From: a virus
Length of the DNA stretch: 47,197 bases
Direction: 5' to 3' (one strand)
Virus record (IMG/VR): IMGVR_UViG_3300021959_000075
Location: 1-47,197 of that record
Position 1 is the stretch's first letter, and every line of letters begins with the position of its first letter. The position numbers and the translations under genes were made by a program. This document shows positions 3,600 through 25,928 of this stretch, piece after piece. A model generated the notes under the pieces. That model did no database searches. It saw only the letters and a program-made list of their open reading frames with translations, and was not told the origin of the DNA.

Positions 3600-4697
3600 T
3601 TATCTTGCAGTTGTTGGCACACCACCAGCAACAAATGGATTTTCTGCCCAAGCCATATAAATTATTGTTGCTCCAGATGCATTATGATCTGCATCTGTGT
3701 TTCTCATTTTAAAACCATTTGAATAAAAATCTATATAATTTCTTGTAGTGTTGTCTGCGTTTGTTAAATTTTGAAACATTCTATGTTTTACTACATTATT
3801 TGTATCTCGTTTATTATCAATATTTACCCAGTTACCGCTTGTATCTGTTCTTTTCATTATTACATAAGCAGGTTTAAAGCCTGTATAGACGAACGGACCA
3901 TCGTCACTATTATTACCGACATACTTTCCAAATTTACTATACCCTTTTACCTCTGTCCAACAGAAAGCTAAATACTTATCTGCTCCTAATGGTCTAAAAA
4001 CACTATTGTGGTCTTTGCAGTATACTTGAGTTGTATCTGGTTCTGCAGATAAAAAAGCAGTGCCAGTATCGCCAGCGCCATCAGTGTGTGGATATACAGT
4101 ATGGGTATAACCTAGTGCTGAGTGATACATTACCCAATCATATGCATTACGAGATTTAATCATTACAACATCAGGCTTAACGCCTAATCCATGATAAAAG
4201 CTTCCATATGATGTAGCTCCTTGATATAGACACATTGAAAATCCTGCAGTAGAATTAACTTGATGCTTTGTAGACATTTGCATATTGTTTGTAGTTTGTG
4301 TGCCATTTGGAGTTGTGGTATAAGTTCCACCGTTTGCTTTCCACTGCCAAGCTACATAATTATTACTCGCAGCATTTATCCATAGATGTACATAAACATT
4401 TGTAGAAGAAGCTCCTCTAAAACCATTAGTATTAAAACTTTGTATTGTACTTTGTCCACTATCTACACCTTCAGCATCATCACCATATGCAGTATTGAGG
4501 TATAGATTATAATTGCTTCCTCTCATTGAATCATGAACAACAACACCGTAACTACCATTAGTTCTATTTTTTATCCAAACAAGGTCAGGTTTTAAGTCAC
4601 TAGGTCCATCATTAACTATGTCTTGGTTTGGTCCTGTTCCCGTATAAGCAACAGCTTGAAAATGTGCGCTTGGGTCTAGTATATCTGAATATGCCAT
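3600..4697 (-). CDS. Receptor-type fibre protein, cassette copy B
   Basis: A 365-residue protein whose ends and core motifs match the 362-residue protein at 7590-8678: DPSAHFQ near the N-terminus, SDLKPDLVWIKNR, AWQWKANGGT, HGLGVKPDVVMIKSR, GPFVYTGFKPAYVIMKR and a shared ending ENPFVAGGVPTTAR. The repeated KPDhVhIKxR motif suggests internally related beta-domain halves. Proteins with these motifs occur beside LamG/SPRY proteins in marine phages; a role in binding the cell surface is inferred from that context and not shown. It is the last gene of cassette B, one base from the LamG/SPRY gene upstream (stop at 4699, start at 4697). Confidence 0.8.
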   Translation of the reverse strand: MAYSDILDPSAHFQAVAYTGTGPNQDIVNDGPSDLKPDLVWIKNRTNGSYGVVVHDSMRGSNYNLYLNTAYGDDAEGVDSGQSTIQSFNTNGFRGASSTNVYVHLWINAASNNYVAWQWKANGGTYTTTPNGTQTTNNMQMSTKHQVNSTAGFSMCLYQGATSYGSFYHGLGVKPDVVMIKSRNAYDWVMYHSALGYTHTVYPHTDGAGDTGTAFLSAEPDTTQVYCKDHNSVFRPLGADKYLAFCWTEVKGYSKFGKYVGNNSDDGPFVYTGFKPAYVIMKRTDTSGNWVNIDNKRDTNNVVKHRMFQNLTNADNTTRNYIDFYSNGFKMRNTDADHNASGATIIYMAWAENPFVAGGVPTTAR

Positions 4698-7589: not shown

Positions 7590-8678
7590 TTATCGTGCGG
7601 TGGTTGGCACTCCTGTTGATGTTACTAATGGATTTTCTGCAAAGGCCATGTAGATGTAAGTATCGCCTGCATCATTTATTTCATCAGAGCCACCATCTTT
7701 TACTTTAAAGCCGTTTGATAACATATTTATACGAACCTCTGAACTGTTGGCACTACCTTGACCTCTTTTACCTTCTGCATAATCTCTGTTTGCATACAAA
7801 CTTTGTGGTCCACCTGTTGGGTTGTAACCTAATCTCTTGTTGTCAAACATAGCCCAACTTGAATAGGTTGTACCAGCATCAACTCTTTTTATCATTACAA
7901 AAGCAGGCTTAAATCCTAAATATATGAATGGGCCATCTGCATTTGAATTTCCGATATACGAACCAAAATGGCTGTAGCCTTGTTTTTCTGCCCAACACCA
8001 AGCAACAAATGGATAGTTACCATTTACAGACCAATCAGTGCTAACAGAAAATACACTCGAGGTTGCAGCTGAGTTCATTAAAGTTGTGCCAGTTGTATTA
8101 TAAGCACTTGTGCTATTTACTATTATCATTCCTGTACCATTATTTATGGCATGATGATTCAATCTCCAACTTTCAGCTCTTGTTCTATTTCTAATAAGGA
8201 TAACACCTGGTTTTGCTCCTAGGCCATGTCCAACAGTTTGGTTATTAGAAGTATTACCTGTGTAAGTAACAATACTAAAACCTGCATCTGTATTAGCTTG
8301 TACTGTTGAGGTTATATCGCCATCCGTATTACTAGCTGTCGTACCCCCATTGGCTTTCCATTGCCATCCGACAAAAGTTGCTGCATTGAGATTGGCTGTT
8401 CCATTACTGCCCAAAGTAAAACCATCTGTGTTAAATGCAGTTACTCCACTTACAGTTTCTTCTGCCGCGTCTAAGTTTGAATATATTTGTTTGGTTGCAC
8501 CCCTGCTTGAATCAACTAAAGCATGGTGTGAAGTATCACTTCTTTTTTTAGTCCAAACCAAATCAGGTTTTAAATCACTATTGCCATCATTTGTAACAGC
8601 TAAAGTTCCACTATTTCCAGTATATAAAGCAGTCTGAAAATGCGCTGATGGGTCGTCTATATTTGTATATGCTGCCAT
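7590..8678 (-). CDS. Receptor-type fibre protein, cassette copy A
   Basis: A 362-residue paralogue of 3600-4697. It has the same framework: DPSAHFQ, SDLKPDLVWTKKR, GWQWKANGGT, GHGLGAKPGVILIRNR, FGSYIGNSNADGPFIYLGFK and the C-terminal YIYMAFAENPLV with PTTAR. The segments between these anchors differ much more than the anchors, as expected for exposed loops that contact different receptors (inference). It is the last gene of cassette A, with its start one base from the stop of the LamG/SPRY gene. A 16-base stretch that includes its stop region and the following late promoter is also found after copy B. Confidence 0.8.
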   Translation of the reverse strand: MAAYTNIDDPSAHFQTALYTGNSGTLAVTNDGNSDLKPDLVWTKKRSDTSHHALVDSSRGATKQIYSNLDAAEETVSGVTAFNTDGFTLGSNGTANLNAATFVGWQWKANGGTTASNTDGDITSTVQANTDAGFSIVTYTGNTSNNQTVGHGLGAKPGVILIRNRTRAESWRLNHHAINNGTGMIIVNSTSAYNTTGTTLMNSAATSSVFSVSTDWSVNGNYPFVAWCWAEKQGYSHFGSYIGNSNADGPFIYLGFKPAFVMIKRVDAGTTYSSWAMFDNKRLGYNPTGGPQSLYANRDYAEGKRGQGSANSSEVRINMLSNGFKVKDGGSDEINDAGDTYIYMAFAENPLVTSTGVPTTAR

Positions 8679-10868: not shown

Positions 10869-10876
10869 TATTTATA
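10869..10876 (-). promoter_or_regulatory. T4-type late promoter box (cassette A)
   Basis: TATAAATA on the minus strand, overlapping the stop of the 1259-residue fibre; about 25-base predicted leader to the ATG at 10838. Confidence 0.7.
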
Positions 10877-13800
10877 CAGGTATTGCCGTTGATATAACCT
10901 TTACTGCCATACTTGTTGCACTTCCTGCTGTTATTTGTAATAATAAATTACCACCTGAAATTGCAACATCGAATGTTCCTAATGCTGCGTTATCAAATAA
11001 TGTACCGTATTCAGTCATATATGCTGTGGTACCATCATGGATAACATTAATTTCTGTTGAATGGTAATCTGTTCCTTGTGTACATTGTACTAAGTATTTA
11101 ACTGTTCTATATGTAGCGATTGCATGTGTTGCAATTGTTGAAGCACTTGTACTTGCAACTGTTGTTGCTGTGACTTCATTTGGTATAATAGCTGTAGTAT
11201 CGAATTGAGAAATATTATCAATTGAAGTACTACCTGGCTGATTAATTTCAACTGTTGTTGGTATTAATACCTCTATATCATCTCCAGTTCCAGGAGCTGT
11301 ACTAAACGTAAGTGTTGTACCACTTACACTATATTCTGATTTATGCTGATAAACACCATCTAAATAAACCAATGTATTGTTTTCATTCATTGGTGCAACA
11401 GTTAATGTAAATGCTGTTGTTGAATTATCTCCAGTAAATCCATTGACTGTATGTCCACCACCTACAACACCATCACCAATAATATGAACTACAACTTCTG
11501 AACCAGATGCTGGTGCTCCGTCTAATGTTAAAGTGGTTCCACTTAATACATATGAATTTTTATTTTGATAAACACCTTCGACAAATACAATAAGATTATC
11601 TTCTGTACTTGGTGTAGTGCTAAGTGTAAAAGCTGTTGTTGAATTATTTGCTGTTGTAAATAAATCTGTAACAAATGGATTAATTGATTTATTACCATCA
11701 AATGTAACAGTATCTGTACCAGCTGTTGTTGTAATAGTAACACCATTTTGACCAACAAGTGTTACTGTATCTCCTGTTGAATCAGCAGCTACTGTTGTTT
11801 GACCTGATACTGCAATGTTTTGGAATGCATTAGCACCAAGAGAACTATTTGTAATTGTAATAGTATCTGAAGAAGCATTAGTTGTTAATGCAATACCTGC
11901 ACCAGCCGCTAATGTTAATGTATCAGATGAACTATCTGCGACTACACTTGATTGTCCTGAAATTGCAATTGTTTCAAATGCATTTCCACCAGCTAATCCC
12001 CAACTTAAATTACCAGAACCATCTGTTTTAAGTGCGTATCCTGCTGTTCCATCTGCTGTCGGTAGTACCCATATTTGATCTCCACTTAATGCTGGAGCTT
12101 CAAAGCCTACATAATTAGAACCTTCATAAAATCTTAATTCATTTGCTGAGCCATCTAATGAAACATGGCCAGAAACATTTAATGTACTATTAATATCTAC
12201 TGCTTCTGCAAATGTTGGAGTACCTGTGACTGTAATCGTATCGCTTGAAGCATTACCTAATGTTGTATTTCCTTCAACAACTAAATTACCCTCAATAGTT
12301 AATCCACTGACATCATCAACAGTTACATTCCTAGAACCTGTATTAACTTCGATTGATTGACCATTTGCTGGAGCAGTTGAGAATGTTAATGTTGTACCTG
12401 AAATACTATAAGTAGCTTTTTCCTGATAGACACCATCAATAAAGACCATTGTATTGCCTTCAACATCTGGATCTGCTGTTAATGTAAATGCTGTTGTACT
12501 TCCATTTCCTGTAAATTCATCAGTGACTGCATCTGCACTACCAATAATTTGTACAAAAGTAGATATTTGTAAAAGGTCACTTGTTGTTGCACCATTAACA
12601 AGTACAACTGCTGTACCATTTGTTGCAGTATAATCTGTACCATTGTCAAGTAAAACACCGTTTAAGAATACTTGTAAAAAGAGTGGTGTATAACTCAGTG
12701 TATTACTATTATCATCTGAACCTGAGAATGATGTTTGATTATTTGTTGCAGTATAAACGTATTCTTTATAAACAGCTGATTGAGTCGATCCACCAGATGA
12801 AGTAAATGTAATTGTATCTGATGTAGCATTTGTGGTAATTGACATACCAGAGCCAGCAGCTAATGTTAATGTATCTGTGGCTGTATCAGCTACAACATCA
12901 CTTTGACCACTTACTGCTATTGTTTTAAATGTTTCACTTACTGAACCACTAGCTGAAGAAGCAATTGTTACTGTATCAGTGCCTGGTGTAGTTGTTAATG
13001 TTATATTAGAACCAGCAGCTAAAGTTAGTGTATCACTATTAGAGTCTGCAACAACATCACTTTGTCCTGAAACTGATACTGTACCAAAAGCATTTCCACC
13101 AGCTGATATAGAACTAAATGATAAGTTTCCTGAACCATCAGTTACTAATGCTTGTCCACTTGAACCATCACTTGTCGGGTAAGTTAGTCCTGCAACTACT
13201 AGGGTTGTACCATTTAATAATTGTAATGAATCAGATCTTAATCTTGCTGTAATAACATTTGAACCAGCTTTTTTATTAGCAAATTCTAATAAACCATCTT
13301 CACTTCCATCTGAAGCATCTTGTATTTTGGCTGTGACTTTTGCATAAACCACTTCTTGGTCAGCATCATTTTCGCCTTTGAATTTTAATTGACCTAAATA
13401 ATCTGCATCTGCAACTGAAGATGAATTTCTTTTTAATGTTATAACAGGAGCTGCAGAACTTGAAGCTTCAGTTGTTGTTAATAATAAAGTATCATCAGTT
13501 GTTGTACTTGTAATTGTTAATGGGTGTGAAACATCAAACCTATCGTTTGTCGCATCCCATAATAAAGTAGCATCTGTTGAACTATTAACTGCATCTTGTA
13601 TTGTAATACCAGCACCATTGGCTGAACCTGATGTATCTCCTGAACCAAAGTTAAGAGTTATATTTTTATCTTCTACATCAAGTGTTGCTGTATTTAAAGT
13701 TGTTGTTGTTCCTTGTACAGTTAAATCACCAGCTACTGTCAGATCATTAAATGTAACATCGTCAGATGTAGCTACTGCTTGTCCAATTGATATTTGGCCA

Positions 13801-14651
13801 GACGATATTGTAACGCCTGTACCTGCAGAGAAATGAGCCCTTGTTTCTGAAGCACTTGGACCTGTGTATGTAATAACACCTGTTGAATTATTATATGCAA
13901 GTGAACCATCACCACCAGCATCTGTAACTGATATGAGTCCTCTTACCTGAGCATCTGTCCTTTGTGTAAAAGACATAACACCTGTTGAATTATTATAACT
14001 TAAATCACCACTTGCACTTATGGCTGCACGAGCTCTTGCATCTGTATAGTATAAATTTGTTCCTTCTGTTAAATCAGCAGTATCAAATCCAGTTAAATTT
14101 CTTGTAGCAAAACTTGCTTGGTTACCCATGTAGCCATGAGCTGAACATTGATAATGTAATACTCCAGGAGTAGCATCTGTTGGAATTATTTGAGTGTACG
14201 CACCAGAAGATCCTGGTGTTCCAGATGTTGTTACACCTGTACTATAAGCAGTTGTTTTATCTGCTTCATAATAGAATCTTAATGGATGATTACTATTAGA
14301 AGAATCTGATTGATCAAACCTGTATGTTACGCCTGGTATTAATTTTAAGTAAGGTGAAGGTAATCCATTGATAAAATATTTACTGGAGCTACCTGTACCA
14401 TTATATCTATGATCTGTAGTAGTTGAAACAACTGTGACTGTAAGAGTTTCTGTGACTCCTGTTGAGAGATGATAATCATAAGAAGAAGAACCGACTTGAA
14501 CTACTCGATCAATACTACCAAACGTTTTCTTAACATATAACTTACCGTCATATGTATTAATTGCAAGTTCGCCTAGGTCGAGATTTGATGTAGTTGGTAT
14601 AGAACCCTGCGTAGCAGAGCGCCTTAACTTGATGTTAGTATTTCTTGCCAA
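10872..14651 (-). CDS. Long tail fibre with N-terminal cupredoxin-like domain and tandem repeats
   Basis: A 1259-residue protein. Residues 1-40 hold a typical marine fibre N-terminus (KLRRSATQGSIPTTSNLDLG, LAINTYDGKLYVKK). Residues about 60-182 resemble a cupredoxin: GVTYRFDQSD, NHPLRFYYEA, then HYQCSAHGYMGN, giving His122, Cys169, His172 and Met175 in the C-x2-H-x2-M spacing of amicyanin-type copper sites. Further on are fibre segments (VAGDLTVQGTTTTLNTATLD), four copies of a roughly 48-residue repeat (SGQSDVVADSNSDTLTLAAG type) and at least three copies of the STTAFTL ... GVYQxK module that recurs in the protein at 1-2077. The cupredoxin assignment rests on ligand pattern and context only. 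The gene has a late promoter about 85 bases upstream and AGGAG before the ATG. Confidence 0.85.
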   Translation of the reverse strand: MARNTNIKLRRSATQGSIPTTSNLDLGELAINTYDGKLYVKKTFGSIDRVVQVGSSSYDYHLSTGVTETLTVTVVSTTTDHRYNGTGSSSKYFINGLPSPYLKLIPGVTYRFDQSDSSNSNHPLRFYYEADKTTAYSTGVTTSGTPGSSGAYTQIIPTDATPGVLHYQCSAHGYMGNQASFATRNLTGFDTADLTEGTNLYYTDARARAAISASGDLSYNNSTGVMSFTQRTDAQVRGLISVTDAGGDGSLAYNNSTGVITYTGPSASETRAHFSAGTGVTISSGQISIGQAVATSDDVTFNDLTVAGDLTVQGTTTTLNTATLDVEDKNITLNFGSGDTSGSANGAGITIQDAVNSSTDATLLWDATNDRFDVSHPLTITSTTTDDTLLLTTTEASSSAAPVITLKRNSSSVADADYLGQLKFKGENDADQEVVYAKVTAKIQDASDGSEDGLLEFANKKAGSNVITARLRSDSLQLLNGTTLVVAGLTYPTSDGSSGQALVTDGSGNLSFSSISAGGNAFGTVSVSGQSDVVADSNSDTLTLAAGSNITLTTTPGTDTVTIASSASGSVSETFKTIAVSGQSDVVADTATDTLTLAAGSGMSITTNATSDTITFTSSGGSTQSAVYKEYVYTATNNQTSFSGSDDNSNTLSYTPLFLQVFLNGVLLDNGTDYTATNGTAVVLVNGATTSDLLQISTFVQIIGSADAVTDEFTGNGSTTAFTLTADPDVEGNTMVFIDGVYQEKATYSISGTTLTFSTAPANGQSIEVNTGSRNVTVDDVSGLTIEGNLVVEGNTTLGNASSDTITVTGTPTFAEAVDINSTLNVSGHVSLDGSANELRFYEGSNYVGFEAPALSGDQIWVLPTADGTAGYALKTDGSGNLSWGLAGGNAFETIAISGQSSVVADSSSDTLTLAAGAGIALTTNASSDTITITNSSLGANAFQNIAVSGQTTVAADSTGDTVTLVGQNGVTITTTAGTDTVTFDGNKSINPFVTDLFTTANNSTTAFTLSTTPSTEDNLIVFVEGVYQNKNSYVLSGTTLTLDGAPASGSEVVVHIIGDGVVGGGHTVNGFTGDNSTTAFTLTVAPMNENNTLVYLDGVYQHKSEYSVSGTTLTFSTAPGTGDDIEVLIPTTVEINQPGSTSIDNISQFDTTAIIPNEVTATTVASTSASTIATHAIATYRTVKYLVQCTQGTDYHSTEINVIHDGTTAYMTEYGTLFDNAALGTFDVAISGGNLLLQITAGSATSMAVKVISTAIPV

Positions 14652-20579: not shown

Positions 20580-23500
20580 CTATGTTGCACAGATTGCTCT
20601 AAAATCTTTAACTAATGGAGGTGTAGAAGATACTGCTCCTTGTAATACTATTTTAAATTGTATTGAACTAAATGATGAACCTGCTCCAAATGGATCAATA
20701 TCATATTGTACTTCTTGGAAAGAAGAATCATTGAATGGAATAACTGTTCCAGTAACTGGTAATTGCGCTGTCCAAGTACTTGCTGTAATATCTTCATCAC
20801 CGCTTGTAGCTCTCCAATAAAAATCAACATCAGCTCCACCTGGTTTTAAAGCATTAATATATACTGTAGCTATGTCAGCTTGTTCTGCTAATTCAATTTT
20901 CTTAGTAATATATCTTGCAACTTCAGTACCGCCAGTAGCAGTCGTTTCAGACCCACCATTATCACTAATAATATTTTGTATGGTATTCACCGATAATCTG
21001 TTCATATCGATAACTGGACTTAACGCCTCATTCTCAGTTGTTAAGACTGCAGTTAATTGAAATGATTTAACATTACTAGTTTCATTAATTGCTGAATAAA
21101 TTGCTTGAGGCGTCACATATCTATAATTTCTATTTGGTAAAATCTCATAGCCATCACCTGTTCCTGTAAGAGCATATCTTGTTTCAGTTCCATTAACACT
21201 TGTTGTTGTACGTGTTTTTAAGAAAAATCTAACTGACGTTCCTGGAACTTGTATGTTTTCAATGTATGGATACATTACATCCATGTGTCTATTTTCAGTT
21301 GCAGTTGCAGCTGGACCACCAACATAACCAGTACCTGTTGCTGCACTTGACAAAGTAATATCATATGTGTCATGAGTATATGCAGCAATATCATGTGTTC
21401 CATTTAATAGAGATGCATTTGTACCAGTTGCACCTGCAATTGTCACATCATTACTTGTACTGTACATTCCATGATTCTTATGGAATACTTTACATGTTGT
21501 TGTTCCATTTACATAGAATGGATTAACTTGTAATTTTTTAGGAGGTATAACATCGTTTGCAAATATAATTTTTGAGCCTGAACCTGTAAACGTAGCTCTA
21601 TTTAATTTGAACTTAAGATCTTTACTTTGCTCTGGTGTCCATGTTGAAGCATTTGCTGAACTAAAGAACACTCCATTATATGGTTGTTTTGTAATTCTTT
21701 CAGTTGTATTTGTTAAATCTTGTCCACCCATTTCAGCTACATAAACTTCGTAGTCATCTGATTGAGATGTAATTACTATTGCATATTCTGTATCTTGAGC
21801 TAAATAAACTGGATAGTCAAATGCAAAGTTAGTAGCGGCATTAGCATTACCAAAGCCATTATTTGCTGCTGCATCTGATGGTAGGTTAACACTGCTTGGA
21901 TATAAAATTTTATCTCCACCTGGTACTATTCTTTGTGTAGGTGTGCCATTTAATACTGTTCTTATTGTAACTCTTACTGGTATAGTCGCTGATTTTTTTC
22001 TAAAGAATAAGTCAACTGACTTAACAAACAATCCACCGTCCTTATCAATTAAGAATGTTTCAGCGACTGGATCGATATATTCAGTTGTTTCTGATACCTG
22101 TGTATCAACAAGTGTTCTGTCTTCATTTAACTCTGATTGTACTAATCTTGGTACTTTTGTAGAAACAACTTTTTCTTCTGTTATTTCTAACATTCCTTGA
22201 GCATGATATTGAGCTTCTGCATAAGTAGTTTCAGCTGATTTATCATTTGTACTACTATCTGATAGTCTAAATTCTCTTGTACCTACTGCAAATTTTAATG
22301 CGTTATTTCTTGGTATAATAAATGAACCTTCAACTACACCTGATGCATTTGATATTAAAGCTCCAGCAGTATTTGGATGTGATGTTAATCCTTCAAAAGT
22401 ATCAGCACCTGTTAAAGTTGTAAAATCTGTAAAAGATTCTTCTTTAATATAACTTGCTATAGAAGCGCCATCAAAGAAACCATATACTTTTGTATTTGGT
22501 TTAAGCAATTCAGCTTTAAAGAATATTTTTCTTGAACGAATAAATGGTATAAAGTTCATTTCAACTACTTTCGATCCATTGCTTTTAAGTATGGTATCAA
22601 ATGCAAGAGTTGTTTTTATACCACTTCTTGATTGACCAGTAGTTGTAGTGGTTGTTGTAATTGTTGTAACGTTTTGACCAGCTCCATCTAATGTTTCTAT
22701 ATCGTTGGCATCCCATATTTCTGGTTCACCTTCGGTCCACCAAAACTCACGCATTTCTTCTGCTTCATCTCTACCTCTGCCTCCGCCTCTTCCGCGGTTT
22801 CCAGTTGTTTCTGACTTTTCATCAACGTCAATGCCTGTCCAATTTGTTTCCCACTCATTCCATACTGTACCAAGAATTCCGTCTTGTTCAGCCATTTTTT
22901 GAAATTGTTCAAATGATGAAGAATCATCAACGGTAACAACTGGTCGTACATCAACTTCTTTCCATTCATCTGAATCAGGAGATAATTTAACAGTACCAGC
23001 CCAACTAAATACATTATATGGATTTACATTACTAAATGTTGAAGCATAAGGTTGATTAATATAATTAACATCTGTGCCCATTGGTAAAGTAACTAAACCA
23101 TCATTAATTACAGCAGCATTACTATCTCCTGCTAATCTAACTAGGTTAACATTTCTTTCATCAAACTTAGGTCTAAGGACACCATTTTCTTTATCAATAG
23201 AGCATGCATAATCCGGATTAGATGTATCTCCAATTCCATGATTTGTAAAGTTATCTACAATAAATCCATTCTTAAGTCGAGTTGCTCCTGTTGAATCAGT
23301 GATATCAATTGAAGATGCGCTTTGCTCTAATAAAGAAAGCGATGTAAAATATTCTAAATTTTTAATTCGTTTGTCTAAGCTTCCAATGTTTGCCATTGTA
23401 AATCTTTTGTTTTCTATAAGTTTCGGTTTAACACCGCTTAATGAAAAAACATAAGGTGATACTCTAATATCATATATCCCCATTGCATCATCTGGTGTTC

Positions 23501-25928
23501 CTGGTGCTCTTGGGCTTGAGCTAGGTACTCCTGTTTCTATTTTAAACTCGCCTTTTCTTGTAACATATAGTTTATCAATCCTTGGTAAGAAGTGCGTAAG
23601 ATCTGTTACGAAATTACCACTATTTACTGGAGGAGATGAAAGAGATTGGTTACTGCCTGAAGCATAACTTGTACCTGCATCATTAATTCTCGGTCTAAAG
23701 TCGATACAATCTCTTAATTGAACTGTTCCTATATTACCTGAGAATGATGGTATCTGTGTATATTCTGTATCATCGTATGAATCAACACTAAAGAAATCGC
23801 CTGAGCCAGAATGATCATACCAATCAAAGACAACTGTAATCGCGCCTGGATCAATTTCGCCTGACTTAAGAGTAATTTTTCCTATATCATAGAAATTATC
23901 TCTTTGACCATTGTCTAATATAAATCTACCAATAACGCTTTGTCCAGCTGGATCTACTATTGAAGTAATTTTTTTAATGTCAGCTTTACCTAATGAAAGA
24001 ACTCCACTACTTAAAGATTGAGCTGTTAAAGTCTGAGTCTCTTTATCTTTTGTTTTTGGTGCAGCACCAGTGTATGATACATCTACACTAAATACAATTT
24101 GTTGACCTCCAGATAAATTTACGCTTGAGCCTCCTATTGTAGTAAAAGTGATAGTGCTTCCGCCGCCTGTAATAGATGCTGTTGGACTTGCGTCTAAAGC
24201 ATTGTATGTACTTCCATCTTTAATGTATGCAACGACTGTAGAAGCATTAACAAACGATGCTCCACTTATTGTAGCAGCTGGATTATTAGCATTTGTAGTT
24301 CTTGTTTCTCTTACTACGTATGTTGTATTATATGAAGGTGAAGAAACTGTTGAACCAGGATCTCTTAAAGTATCAACTGCTGAATATGGTAATTTGTAAA
24401 CTAATGAATTAAAGCTTGAACCATATATAGTTCTATCAGTTACACTGCTTTGATCAAAAGTATTAGCTCTAAATTTAACTGTTCCGCCATCATCCCATTC
24501 AACACTTACAATGTTATTCATTCCATATCCACTATTAAATTGGATATCAAAAATATACAAATATAATTCAGTTGAACTTGAACCTTGACTTATTCCTCGA
24601 GCTCTGCATGTACCTCTTTTAGTACCGCCACCATTAGCTGCATCGTATAAATCAATTGTATCAAAAGTAGCAATGTCTGGCATTCCAAGAGAACTTGCTT
24701 CATTTAATCTAATATAGTTTCCAAGATTTAATGTTTGTTGTGTTTGATTAACATCAATAGTAGCATCGGCTCCTCTTGGTTTATCAACAGCTAAATATTT
24801 GGTTGTTGTGTTTTCAACTCTAAATCCTTTTACGTAAGATGTATTTGGTTCTATACCAATCGCTAATTTAGTAGCAGACCCACCATTGCTTGATGTTAAA
24901 TAACCATTATTAGTTCCTGTATCTAAATGTTCTCTCACATTTAACTGATATGGATTAACTGAGTAATCTCCTGACTCTTCAAATGTTCTTCTTGCTAATC
25001 TTTCTGTTAATTCTGTTTCTTGATTTTTATCTGTCTTATCAACAGCTGATTTACCGTCTTCAATAACAATAAGAGTAATATAATCTGTTTCTACTCTTGA
25101 TGATAAGCTTAATGGCTCTTTAATAAGAGTTGTTGAAATGCGATATCGTCTTGCTCCAGGAGCTGCTGTGTTTGGAGTTCCTGCAGCGTTATCTAATAAA
25201 GTTGTATCTGTTGTAGCATCAACAATATCTTCAGTAACTTTTAAACCAATAATATAGTTTGGTGTGTTTGTATATTTGTCAAGTATAAGCGATCCTGCTG
25301 GTACATAAACAAATGTACCTGAAATAAAGTATACACCTTCTTCTATATTAACTGCTGATCCTAATCCTATAGGAGTAGATATACTTGAAGCTACTGCAGG
25401 ACTTGAATTATTTGGATTGGCGTTACCACCAACCATTGCGTACCTTACAGTACTCGCGTTTGAACTGAGTACTTCTCCTGCAGCAAATGTTGATGTAGCA
25501 TTGTTTGTACCTGAACCTGTATATTTAACATATAGTGTTGCGGGATCGCCAGATCCTGCTGCAATGACTGCTTGTACAACTGCAGTAACTCCGCCTGTTG
25601 CTCCTGTAATTGTTGTTCCAACAAACTCAGTTAAGTAATTATCTGTAGTTAATGTAGCTGAAGATGCTGAATGATAAAATGAAGATTCTACTTTTACAAA
25701 ATCATATTCTACATTAAGTGTGACTTTACCATTTACAACTCTTGAACCGTCTTTAAATGAATATTGACCATGTCGATCTATTTGCGCTTGAAGCGATGTT
25801 TGTAGTTGTGTAAGCTCTCTTGCTTGAACTGAATAACCTGGTCTAAAAAGAACTCGATGAAAATTCTTTGTTTCATCAAAATCGTCTAATGTGTAACCAG
25901 CTGGTAAGTTTACTATTGTTGTTGCCAT
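20580..25928 (-). CDS. Giant DUF4815-type baseplate/fibre-connector protein
   Basis: At 1782 residues this is the largest gene in the window. The N-terminus contains the marine-phage signature DETKNFHRVLFRPGYSVQAR and ELTQLQTSLQAQIDRHGQYS, which I associate with the DUF4815 family of virion proteins. A short beta motif (FVGTTITGATGGVTAVVQAV) resembling inserts in other wedge proteins follows. The central region (RDCIDFRPRINDAGTSYASG, GEFKIETG, NKRFTMANIGSLDKRIKNLE) is typical of the family. The C-terminal third has beta domains. Position after gp6, the gp7-position protein and gp8 corresponds to the T4 gp9/gp10 part of the wedge, so a peripheral baseplate or fibre-attachment role is inferred. 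A late promoter box sits 20 bases upstream. Confidence 0.8.
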   Translation of the reverse strand: MATTIVNLPAGYTLDDFDETKNFHRVLFRPGYSVQARELTQLQTSLQAQIDRHGQYSFKDGSRVVNGKVTLNVEYDFVKVESSFYHSASSATLTTDNYLTEFVGTTITGATGGVTAVVQAVIAAGSGDPATLYVKYTGSGTNNATSTFAAGEVLSSNASTVRYAMVGGNANPNNSSPAVASSISTPIGLGSAVNIEEGVYFISGTFVYVPAGSLILDKYTNTPNYIIGLKVTEDIVDATTDTTLLDNAAGTPNTAAPGARRYRISTTLIKEPLSLSSRVETDYITLIVIEDGKSAVDKTDKNQETELTERLARRTFEESGDYSVNPYQLNVREHLDTGTNNGYLTSSNGGSATKLAIGIEPNTSYVKGFRVENTTTKYLAVDKPRGADATIDVNQTQQTLNLGNYIRLNEASSLGMPDIATFDTIDLYDAANGGGTKRGTCRARGISQGSSSTELYLYIFDIQFNSGYGMNNIVSVEWDDGGTVKFRANTFDQSSVTDRTIYGSSFNSLVYKLPYSAVDTLRDPGSTVSSPSYNTTYVVRETRTTNANNPAATISGASFVNASTVVAYIKDGSTYNALDASPTASITGGGSTITFTTIGGSSVNLSGGQQIVFSVDVSYTGAAPKTKDKETQTLTAQSLSSGVLSLGKADIKKITSIVDPAGQSVIGRFILDNGQRDNFYDIGKITLKSGEIDPGAITVVFDWYDHSGSGDFFSVDSYDDTEYTQIPSFSGNIGTVQLRDCIDFRPRINDAGTSYASGSNQSLSSPPVNSGNFVTDLTHFLPRIDKLYVTRKGEFKIETGVPSSSPRAPGTPDDAMGIYDIRVSPYVFSLSGVKPKLIENKRFTMANIGSLDKRIKNLEYFTSLSLLEQSASSIDITDSTGATRLKNGFIVDNFTNHGIGDTSNPDYACSIDKENGVLRPKFDERNVNLVRLAGDSNAAVINDGLVTLPMGTDVNYINQPYASTFSNVNPYNVFSWAGTVKLSPDSDEWKEVDVRPVVTVDDSSSFEQFQKMAEQDGILGTVWNEWETNWTGIDVDEKSETTGNRGRGGGRGRDEAEEMREFWWTEGEPEIWDANDIETLDGAGQNVTTITTTTTTTGQSRSGIKTTLAFDTILKSNGSKVVEMNFIPFIRSRKIFFKAELLKPNTKVYGFFDGASIASYIKEESFTDFTTLTGADTFEGLTSHPNTAGALISNASGVVEGSFIIPRNNALKFAVGTREFRLSDSSTNDKSAETTYAEAQYHAQGMLEITEEKVVSTKVPRLVQSELNEDRTLVDTQVSETTEYIDPVAETFLIDKDGGLFVKSVDLFFRKKSATIPVRVTIRTVLNGTPTQRIVPGGDKILYPSSVNLPSDAAANNGFGNANAATNFAFDYPVYLAQDTEYAIVITSQSDDYEVYVAEMGGQDLTNTTERITKQPYNGVFFSSANASTWTPEQSKDLKFKLNRATFTGSGSKIIFANDVIPPKKLQVNPFYVNGTTTCKVFHKNHGMYSTSNDVTIAGATGTNASLLNGTHDIAAYTHDTYDITLSSAATGTGYVGGPAATATENRHMDVMYPYIENIQVPGTSVRFFLKTRTTTSVNGTETRYALTGTGDGYEILPNRNYRYVTPQAIYSAINETSNVKSFQLTAVLTTENEALSPVIDMNRLSVNTIQNIISDNGGSETTATGGTEVARYITKKIELAEQADIATVYINALKPGGADVDFYWRATSGDEDITASTWTAQLPVTGTVIPFNDSSFQEVQYDIDPFGAGSSFSSIQFKIVLQGAVSSTPPLVKDFRAICAT

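Follow-up and report, generated by a model that had tools for sequence, protein, structure and literature searches.

A tail fibre encoded in the 47 kb record of a marine T4-like virus analysed here (the whole stretch of 47,197 nucleotides, hereafter the window) contains a domain of the cupredoxin superfamily with an intact type-1-like site formed by His122, Cys169, His172 and Met175. On balance, we favour the reading that this domain is an exchangeable, metal-stabilised module of marine phage fibres and baseplate connectors. A cupredoxin-like domain in the fibre had been noted in the preliminary description of this DNA, and the observation is real, stronger and broader than was thought at that time: the domain is a recurrent module of marine phage virions that belongs to the cupredoxin superfamily.

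The fibre gene (10872..14651, minus strand) encodes 1259 amino acids from a TTG start preceded by the ribosome-binding sequence AGGAG, and its product matches the tail fiber protein family PHROG_30742 (E 2.8e-51). The window includes a T4-type baseplate region, with a gp6-like wedge, the PHROG_438 baseplate wedge subunit, a T4_baseplate protein and a gp32-type single-strand binding protein, and the nearest relatives of its fibre region are marine phages. Inside the baseplate gene cluster there is also a 1782-residue protein (20580-25928) with a PHROG_358 match of 1431.7 bits, and two DUF7483 proteins (3600-4697 and 7590-8678; E 6.8e-84 and 3.3e-106), which are likely paralogues, flank other genes of the fibre region.

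Residues 1-60 of the fibre (14472..14651, minus strand) correspond to a presumed virion-anchoring module (IKLRRSATxxxIPTTSNLDLGELAINTYDGKLY), an N-terminus common to most relatives with the same architecture. The cupredoxin domain follows at residues 61-182 (14106..14471, minus strand), and three DUF4183 stretches are found further downstream. Only two cysteines, Cys169 and Cys1190, are present in the entire protein. When residues 2-262 were modelled together, the N-terminal segment appeared as a separate small beta unit (pLDDT about 80), the cupredoxin domain behind it stayed well defined, and the prediction was poor from residue 183 on, beyond the domain. The domain is located between the presumed virion-anchoring N-terminus and the shaft. 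In relatives with the fibre architecture it likewise comes after a segment of ~55 residues common to these fibres, so that its earlier assignment to the "attachment end" holds if the presumed virion-proximal end was meant and fails if the receptor-binding tip was. The four ligand positions had been given correctly; the span assigned to the domain, however, closed at the Met175 codon, its lower coordinate on the minus strand, whereas the last strand of the domain extends ~6 residues further, to roughly 14106.

Predicted fold and relation to copper proteins

The AlphaFold2 (AF2) model of residues 61-182, built with 37 relatives, is a beta-sandwich of 9 strands (pLDDT 95.1, pTM 0.88). As modelled, His122 lies just before one strand and Cys169 at the end of another, and the loop preceding the last strand contains His172 and Met175 (H62, C109, H112 and M115 in domain numbering; strands 64-67, 104-109 and 117-121), and this predicted layout of strands and ligands is that of a cupredoxin. 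A Foldseek search of the PDB returned cupredoxins for all of the best 50 matches, namely rusticyanin, two-domain laccases and pseudoazurin, with rusticyanin at the top (E 2.4e-4). VIA gave its top match to the copper nitrite reductase of Hyphomicrobium, in the N-terminal domain, with Z 8.9 and an rmsd of 2.6 across 98 residues; a VIA Z of around 8 is a middling value, and the AF2 model that was compared contains no metal. The cupredoxin barrel proposed from the letters alone was thus recovered by structure prediction and comparison, and AF2, Foldseek and VIA all place the domain among the Greek-key beta-sandwiches of the cupredoxin fold superfamily. Small "beta-sandwich proteins" from Pithovirus and Marseillevirus metagenomes (BFVD A0A481Z6J5, A0A481Z7Q7 and A0A481YY19) also resemble the fold in Foldseek (TM about 0.7-0.76). 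A multicopper oxidase was ruled out, as the domain has no second copper site (HxH pairs).

Profile searches related the domain to the same group of copper proteins. A profile of 12 diverse members, searched against PDB sequences, matched copper nitrite reductase (E 2.3e-4), followed by pseudoazurin, plastocyanin and rusticyanin, and in the plastocyanin alignment the His, Cys and His ligands are in register. The window domain as a single sequence gave only a weak match to nitrite reductase (E 0.025). By hhalign, a cupredoxin profile headed by the plastocyanin of Prochlorococcus was matched with probability 98.8 and with the ligands aligned, a value owed to two cellular proteins that act as bridges (L281 and L283); against canonical cupredoxins alone, with the bridging members omitted, the match was weak (probability 20-47). 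The two bridging proteins exceed the Pfam PF00127 cutoff (34.5 and 32.3 vs 21.2 bits) and also match the phage profile (1.2e-17 and 7.5e-26). A Pfam scan of the window domain gave no family over cutoff; 2 of the 12 relatives match PF00127 weakly (best E 0.0083), and only the cellular bridging members pass the curated cutoff. Similarly, the NCBIfam amicyanin model TIGR02657 did not match the window domain and reached 2 of the 12 relatives at best E 0.011. The tail fiber profile PHROG_30742, in turn, covers domain residues 6-119 (E 2.9e-53).

Type-1 blue copper proteins (plastocyanin, amicyanin, pseudoazurin and rusticyanin) and the cupredoxin domains of copper nitrite reductase share with the fibre domain the predicted fold and the order and placement of the ligands. 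In the AF2 model and in the plastocyanin and nitrite reductase alignments, the arrangement is His...Cys-x(n)-His-x(n)-Met, with the Cys ending the penultimate strand and the loop placed before the last one. The positions of the strands, like these alignments, are consistent with the four ligands lying near one another in space. The proposal that C-x2-H-x2-M and an upstream His have the order and spacing of a type-1 site agrees with the profile alignments, which put His122, Cys169 and His172 on type-1 ligands; Met175 fits an amicyanin-type loop, and amicyanin itself carries C-x2-H-x2-M. The known proteins are soluble periplasmic or lumenal proteins or oxidoreductases, whereas the fibre domain is part of a large virion fibre, falls below the Pfam and NCBIfam cutoffs and has a copper site that is predicted. 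A further difference concerns the residue behind the first ligand. Canonical type-1 sites usually carry Asn after the first His, a feature that is common and not strictly defining in cupredoxins, whereas the fibre domain has Pro123. Because a proline at this position provides no backbone amide hydrogen bond to the Cys sulphur of the kind found in canonical sites, Pro123 suggests a perturbed or atypical copper site.

Conservation and joint loss of the ligands

The predicted first ligand, His122, is encoded by CAT (14286..14288, minus strand) within NHPLRF, before a strand, and is aligned with the type-1 His of plastocyanin and nitrite reductase. On the same strand, the predicted thiolate ligand Cys169 (TGT, 14145..14147) stands at a strand end, and it is followed by the predicted second His ligand, His172 (CAT, 14136..14138), and by the putative axial ligand Met175 (ATG, 14127..14129) of the amicyanin-like loop. 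Shuffling the fibre sequence 20,000 times never produced the motif H-(35-60)-C-x2-H-x2-M.

Every one of 72 close relatives has His122 and Met175, and 69 of the 72 have Cys169, 69 His172 and 69 Pro123; the residues around the ligands in the loop are variable. In 15 more diverse members, comprising fibres and gp9-type connectors, myoviruses and podoviruses, with an identity of 23-65% to the window domain, the sole invariant positions are H122, P123, Y167, C169, H172 and M175 (Pro123 in 15 of 15). Across 32 sequence clusters, Met175 has a weighted conservation of 97%, the highest of any position. At the Cys site (TGT, TGC) and at the His sites, relatives use both synonymous codons. Two of the searches that retrieved relatives used patterns without the C-x2-H-x2-M loop, so that the conservation among the sequences they retrieved is not an artefact of retrieval; two others had one pattern of six with part of the loop.

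All four ligands are found in 235 of 245 distinct domains, so that they are conserved as a set among homologues, as a type-1 site would have it and as the preliminary description would require. Two more domains are truncated and 8 deviate. Each of the 8 deviant domains lacks both Cys169 and His172, and in none is only one of the two lost; the replacements are C>S/H>D, C>S/H>S, C>S/H>T, C>N/H>T and C>E with the His lost. The deviants fall into 5 of the 32 sequence clusters at 62% identity, and the chance of a full coincidence of the Cys and His172 losses would be 1/201,376 if clusters were independent, which related sequences are only approximately. Loss of Cys169 and His172 jointly, and never singly, is what is expected of a metal site. 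Natural versions without the ligands are found in viral contigs (L064, L073, L075, L158, L237 and L252), which indicates that the site is not indispensable to the fold, and these versions provide a ready-made control for the question of why the site is kept.

Distribution in marine phages and bacteria

The domain is widespread in marine phages and is not peculiar to the window fibre. The subfamily of the window domain matches 40 phage records, without exception from marine phages, and a second, P-SSM2-type subfamily matches 349, again all marine (cyanophages, pelagiphages and marine single-cell or uncultured viruses). Among the matches listed, the P-SSM2-type domain is mostly the C-terminus of gp9, the "baseplate wedge tail fiber connector". 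The C-terminal gp9 domain of S-SSM5 and other cyanomyoviruses has all four ligands, and the four were kept in every one of the gp9, podovirus and fibre copies examined. Several copies can be present in one phage (5 matches in P-HM1 and in P-HM2, 4 in P-SSM2 and in S-SSM5); S-PM2 gave one weak partial match, and searches of T4 and P-SSP7 gave none. The place of the domain in its parent protein also varies, being N-terminal, in the middle or near the C-terminus.

In total, 11 PHROG families contain the domain, including 30742, 27200, 677 (baseplate wedge tail fiber connector), 693 and 32294. They are true homologues from cyanophages, pelagiphages and a methylophage; the families are named for the whole protein (tail fiber, baseplate) or unnamed, and none is described as a cupredoxin. 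The cyanophage gp9 genes (for example, L296:571-1797) end in the cupredoxin domain, and their annotation is silent on it. No report of cupredoxins or type-1 copper in phage tails or virions was found among the papers searched and the titles listed, and no solved structure of a phage copy of the domain was found.

In marine Bacteroidetes, the domain occurs in open frames of 5494 and 7465 residues beside FG-GAP, Ig-like and DUF11 repeats. Giant surface-type proteins of this kind (L265, 3-10271; L271, 1323-10262) carry it with all four ligands, and L271 has an additional second copy without any ligand.

Proposed role of the site in the virion

The identity of the metal as copper, the loading of the site and its role are what we infer from here on. 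The ligand set suggests that the virions of these phages carry copper. During folding of the fibre in the host cytoplasm the site would be vacant or occupied by Cu(I), and it would then be filled in the lysate or in seawater. By linking the His122 strand with the C-terminal loop, bound copper could lock a rigid beta-sandwich. The domain of cyanophage gp9 is the C-terminus of a protein that, by analogy with T4, would join the baseplate to the long fibre. This placement, taken together with that in the window fibre, points to a metal-stabilised joint or interaction domain, and probably not to an enzyme; the copies in the middle of proteins and near their C-termini indicate that a function as a joint may not be general.

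Four other readings of the same site were weighed. It is unlikely that fibre-held copper is shown to a metal-uptake receptor on the host surface and so aids attachment, a copper version of the Ferrojan or Trojan Horse idea proposed for iron. A precedent is discussed in PMC11705849, which treats HxH sites that bind iron in the tail fibres of T4 and of marine phages, together with the Trojan Horse hypothesis; in addition, phages whose marine hosts are very different carry the module, as do the giant surface-type proteins of Bacteroidetes. However, the window fibre carries the domain at its presumed virion-proximal end and not at the tip, a type-1 site buries its copper beneath the ligand loop with no obvious handover, and no host copper receptor has been identified. 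The HxH iron sites of T4 gp37 and Alteromonas phage R22Y resemble the present one in being metal sites of a phage fibre with a possible role in marine metal chemistry, but they are octahedral and arranged along the fibre (PMC11705849), in contrast to the single-domain His2-Cys-Met site predicted here in a separate globular fold. Conservation argues against a copied fold that keeps its ligand residues without metal, either for packing or for interchain disulfides through Cys169 in a trimer, which we consider quite unlikely. Ligand-less versions do occur in nature, and ephrins, in which a copper-free cupredoxin fold acts as an adhesion domain, offer a precedent. At about 25% identity, however, the four ligands outlast nearly all else, and the disappearance of Cys169 and His172 only together is not required by packing or by a disulfide, which makes either role of Cys169 unlikely. 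Replacement of copper by another metal, such as zinc or iron, in the virion is highly improbable: cupredoxin sites do take other metals in vitro and free copper is very low in seawater, but a His-Cys-His-Met set ordered in this way within such a fold is the arrangement specific to type-1 copper.

A redox- or light-responsive site is also decidedly improbable. Cycling between Cu(I) and Cu(II) would alter the conformation of the fibre or its attachment, possibly aiding the light-dependent adsorption of some cyanophages, and the complete type-1-like set is that of a classical electron-transfer site. Model fits suggest that P-HM2 hardly adsorbs at all in the dark and that light has no effect on P-SSP7 (PMC7112961); the contrast in domain content between the two phages parallels this response. 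However, P-HM2 and P-SSP7 differ in everything else, there is no known redox partner, the loop residues around the ligands vary and some carrier phages infect non-photosynthetic hosts. S-PM2, which reportedly adsorbs in a light-dependent manner, has only its weak partial match, and on these three phages it is not established that light-dependent adsorption tracks the domain. A bolder version, in which a large proportion of marine T4-like virions hold stoichiometric type-1 copper at the joints between fibre and baseplate and its redox or light state switches fibre deployment or adsorption, is very improbable; if true, phage particles would be both a copper reservoir of the ocean and a redox-sensing device.

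Under the favoured reading of an exchangeable, metal-stabilised module, abundant marine cyanophages and their relatives have a likely copper-binding domain at their fibre joints that does not bear that name in the records and papers searched. Should copper be bound, the particles of marine phages would represent a protein pool of copper that has not been counted so far, next to the iron discussed for tail fibres, and copper or redox state could influence adsorption.
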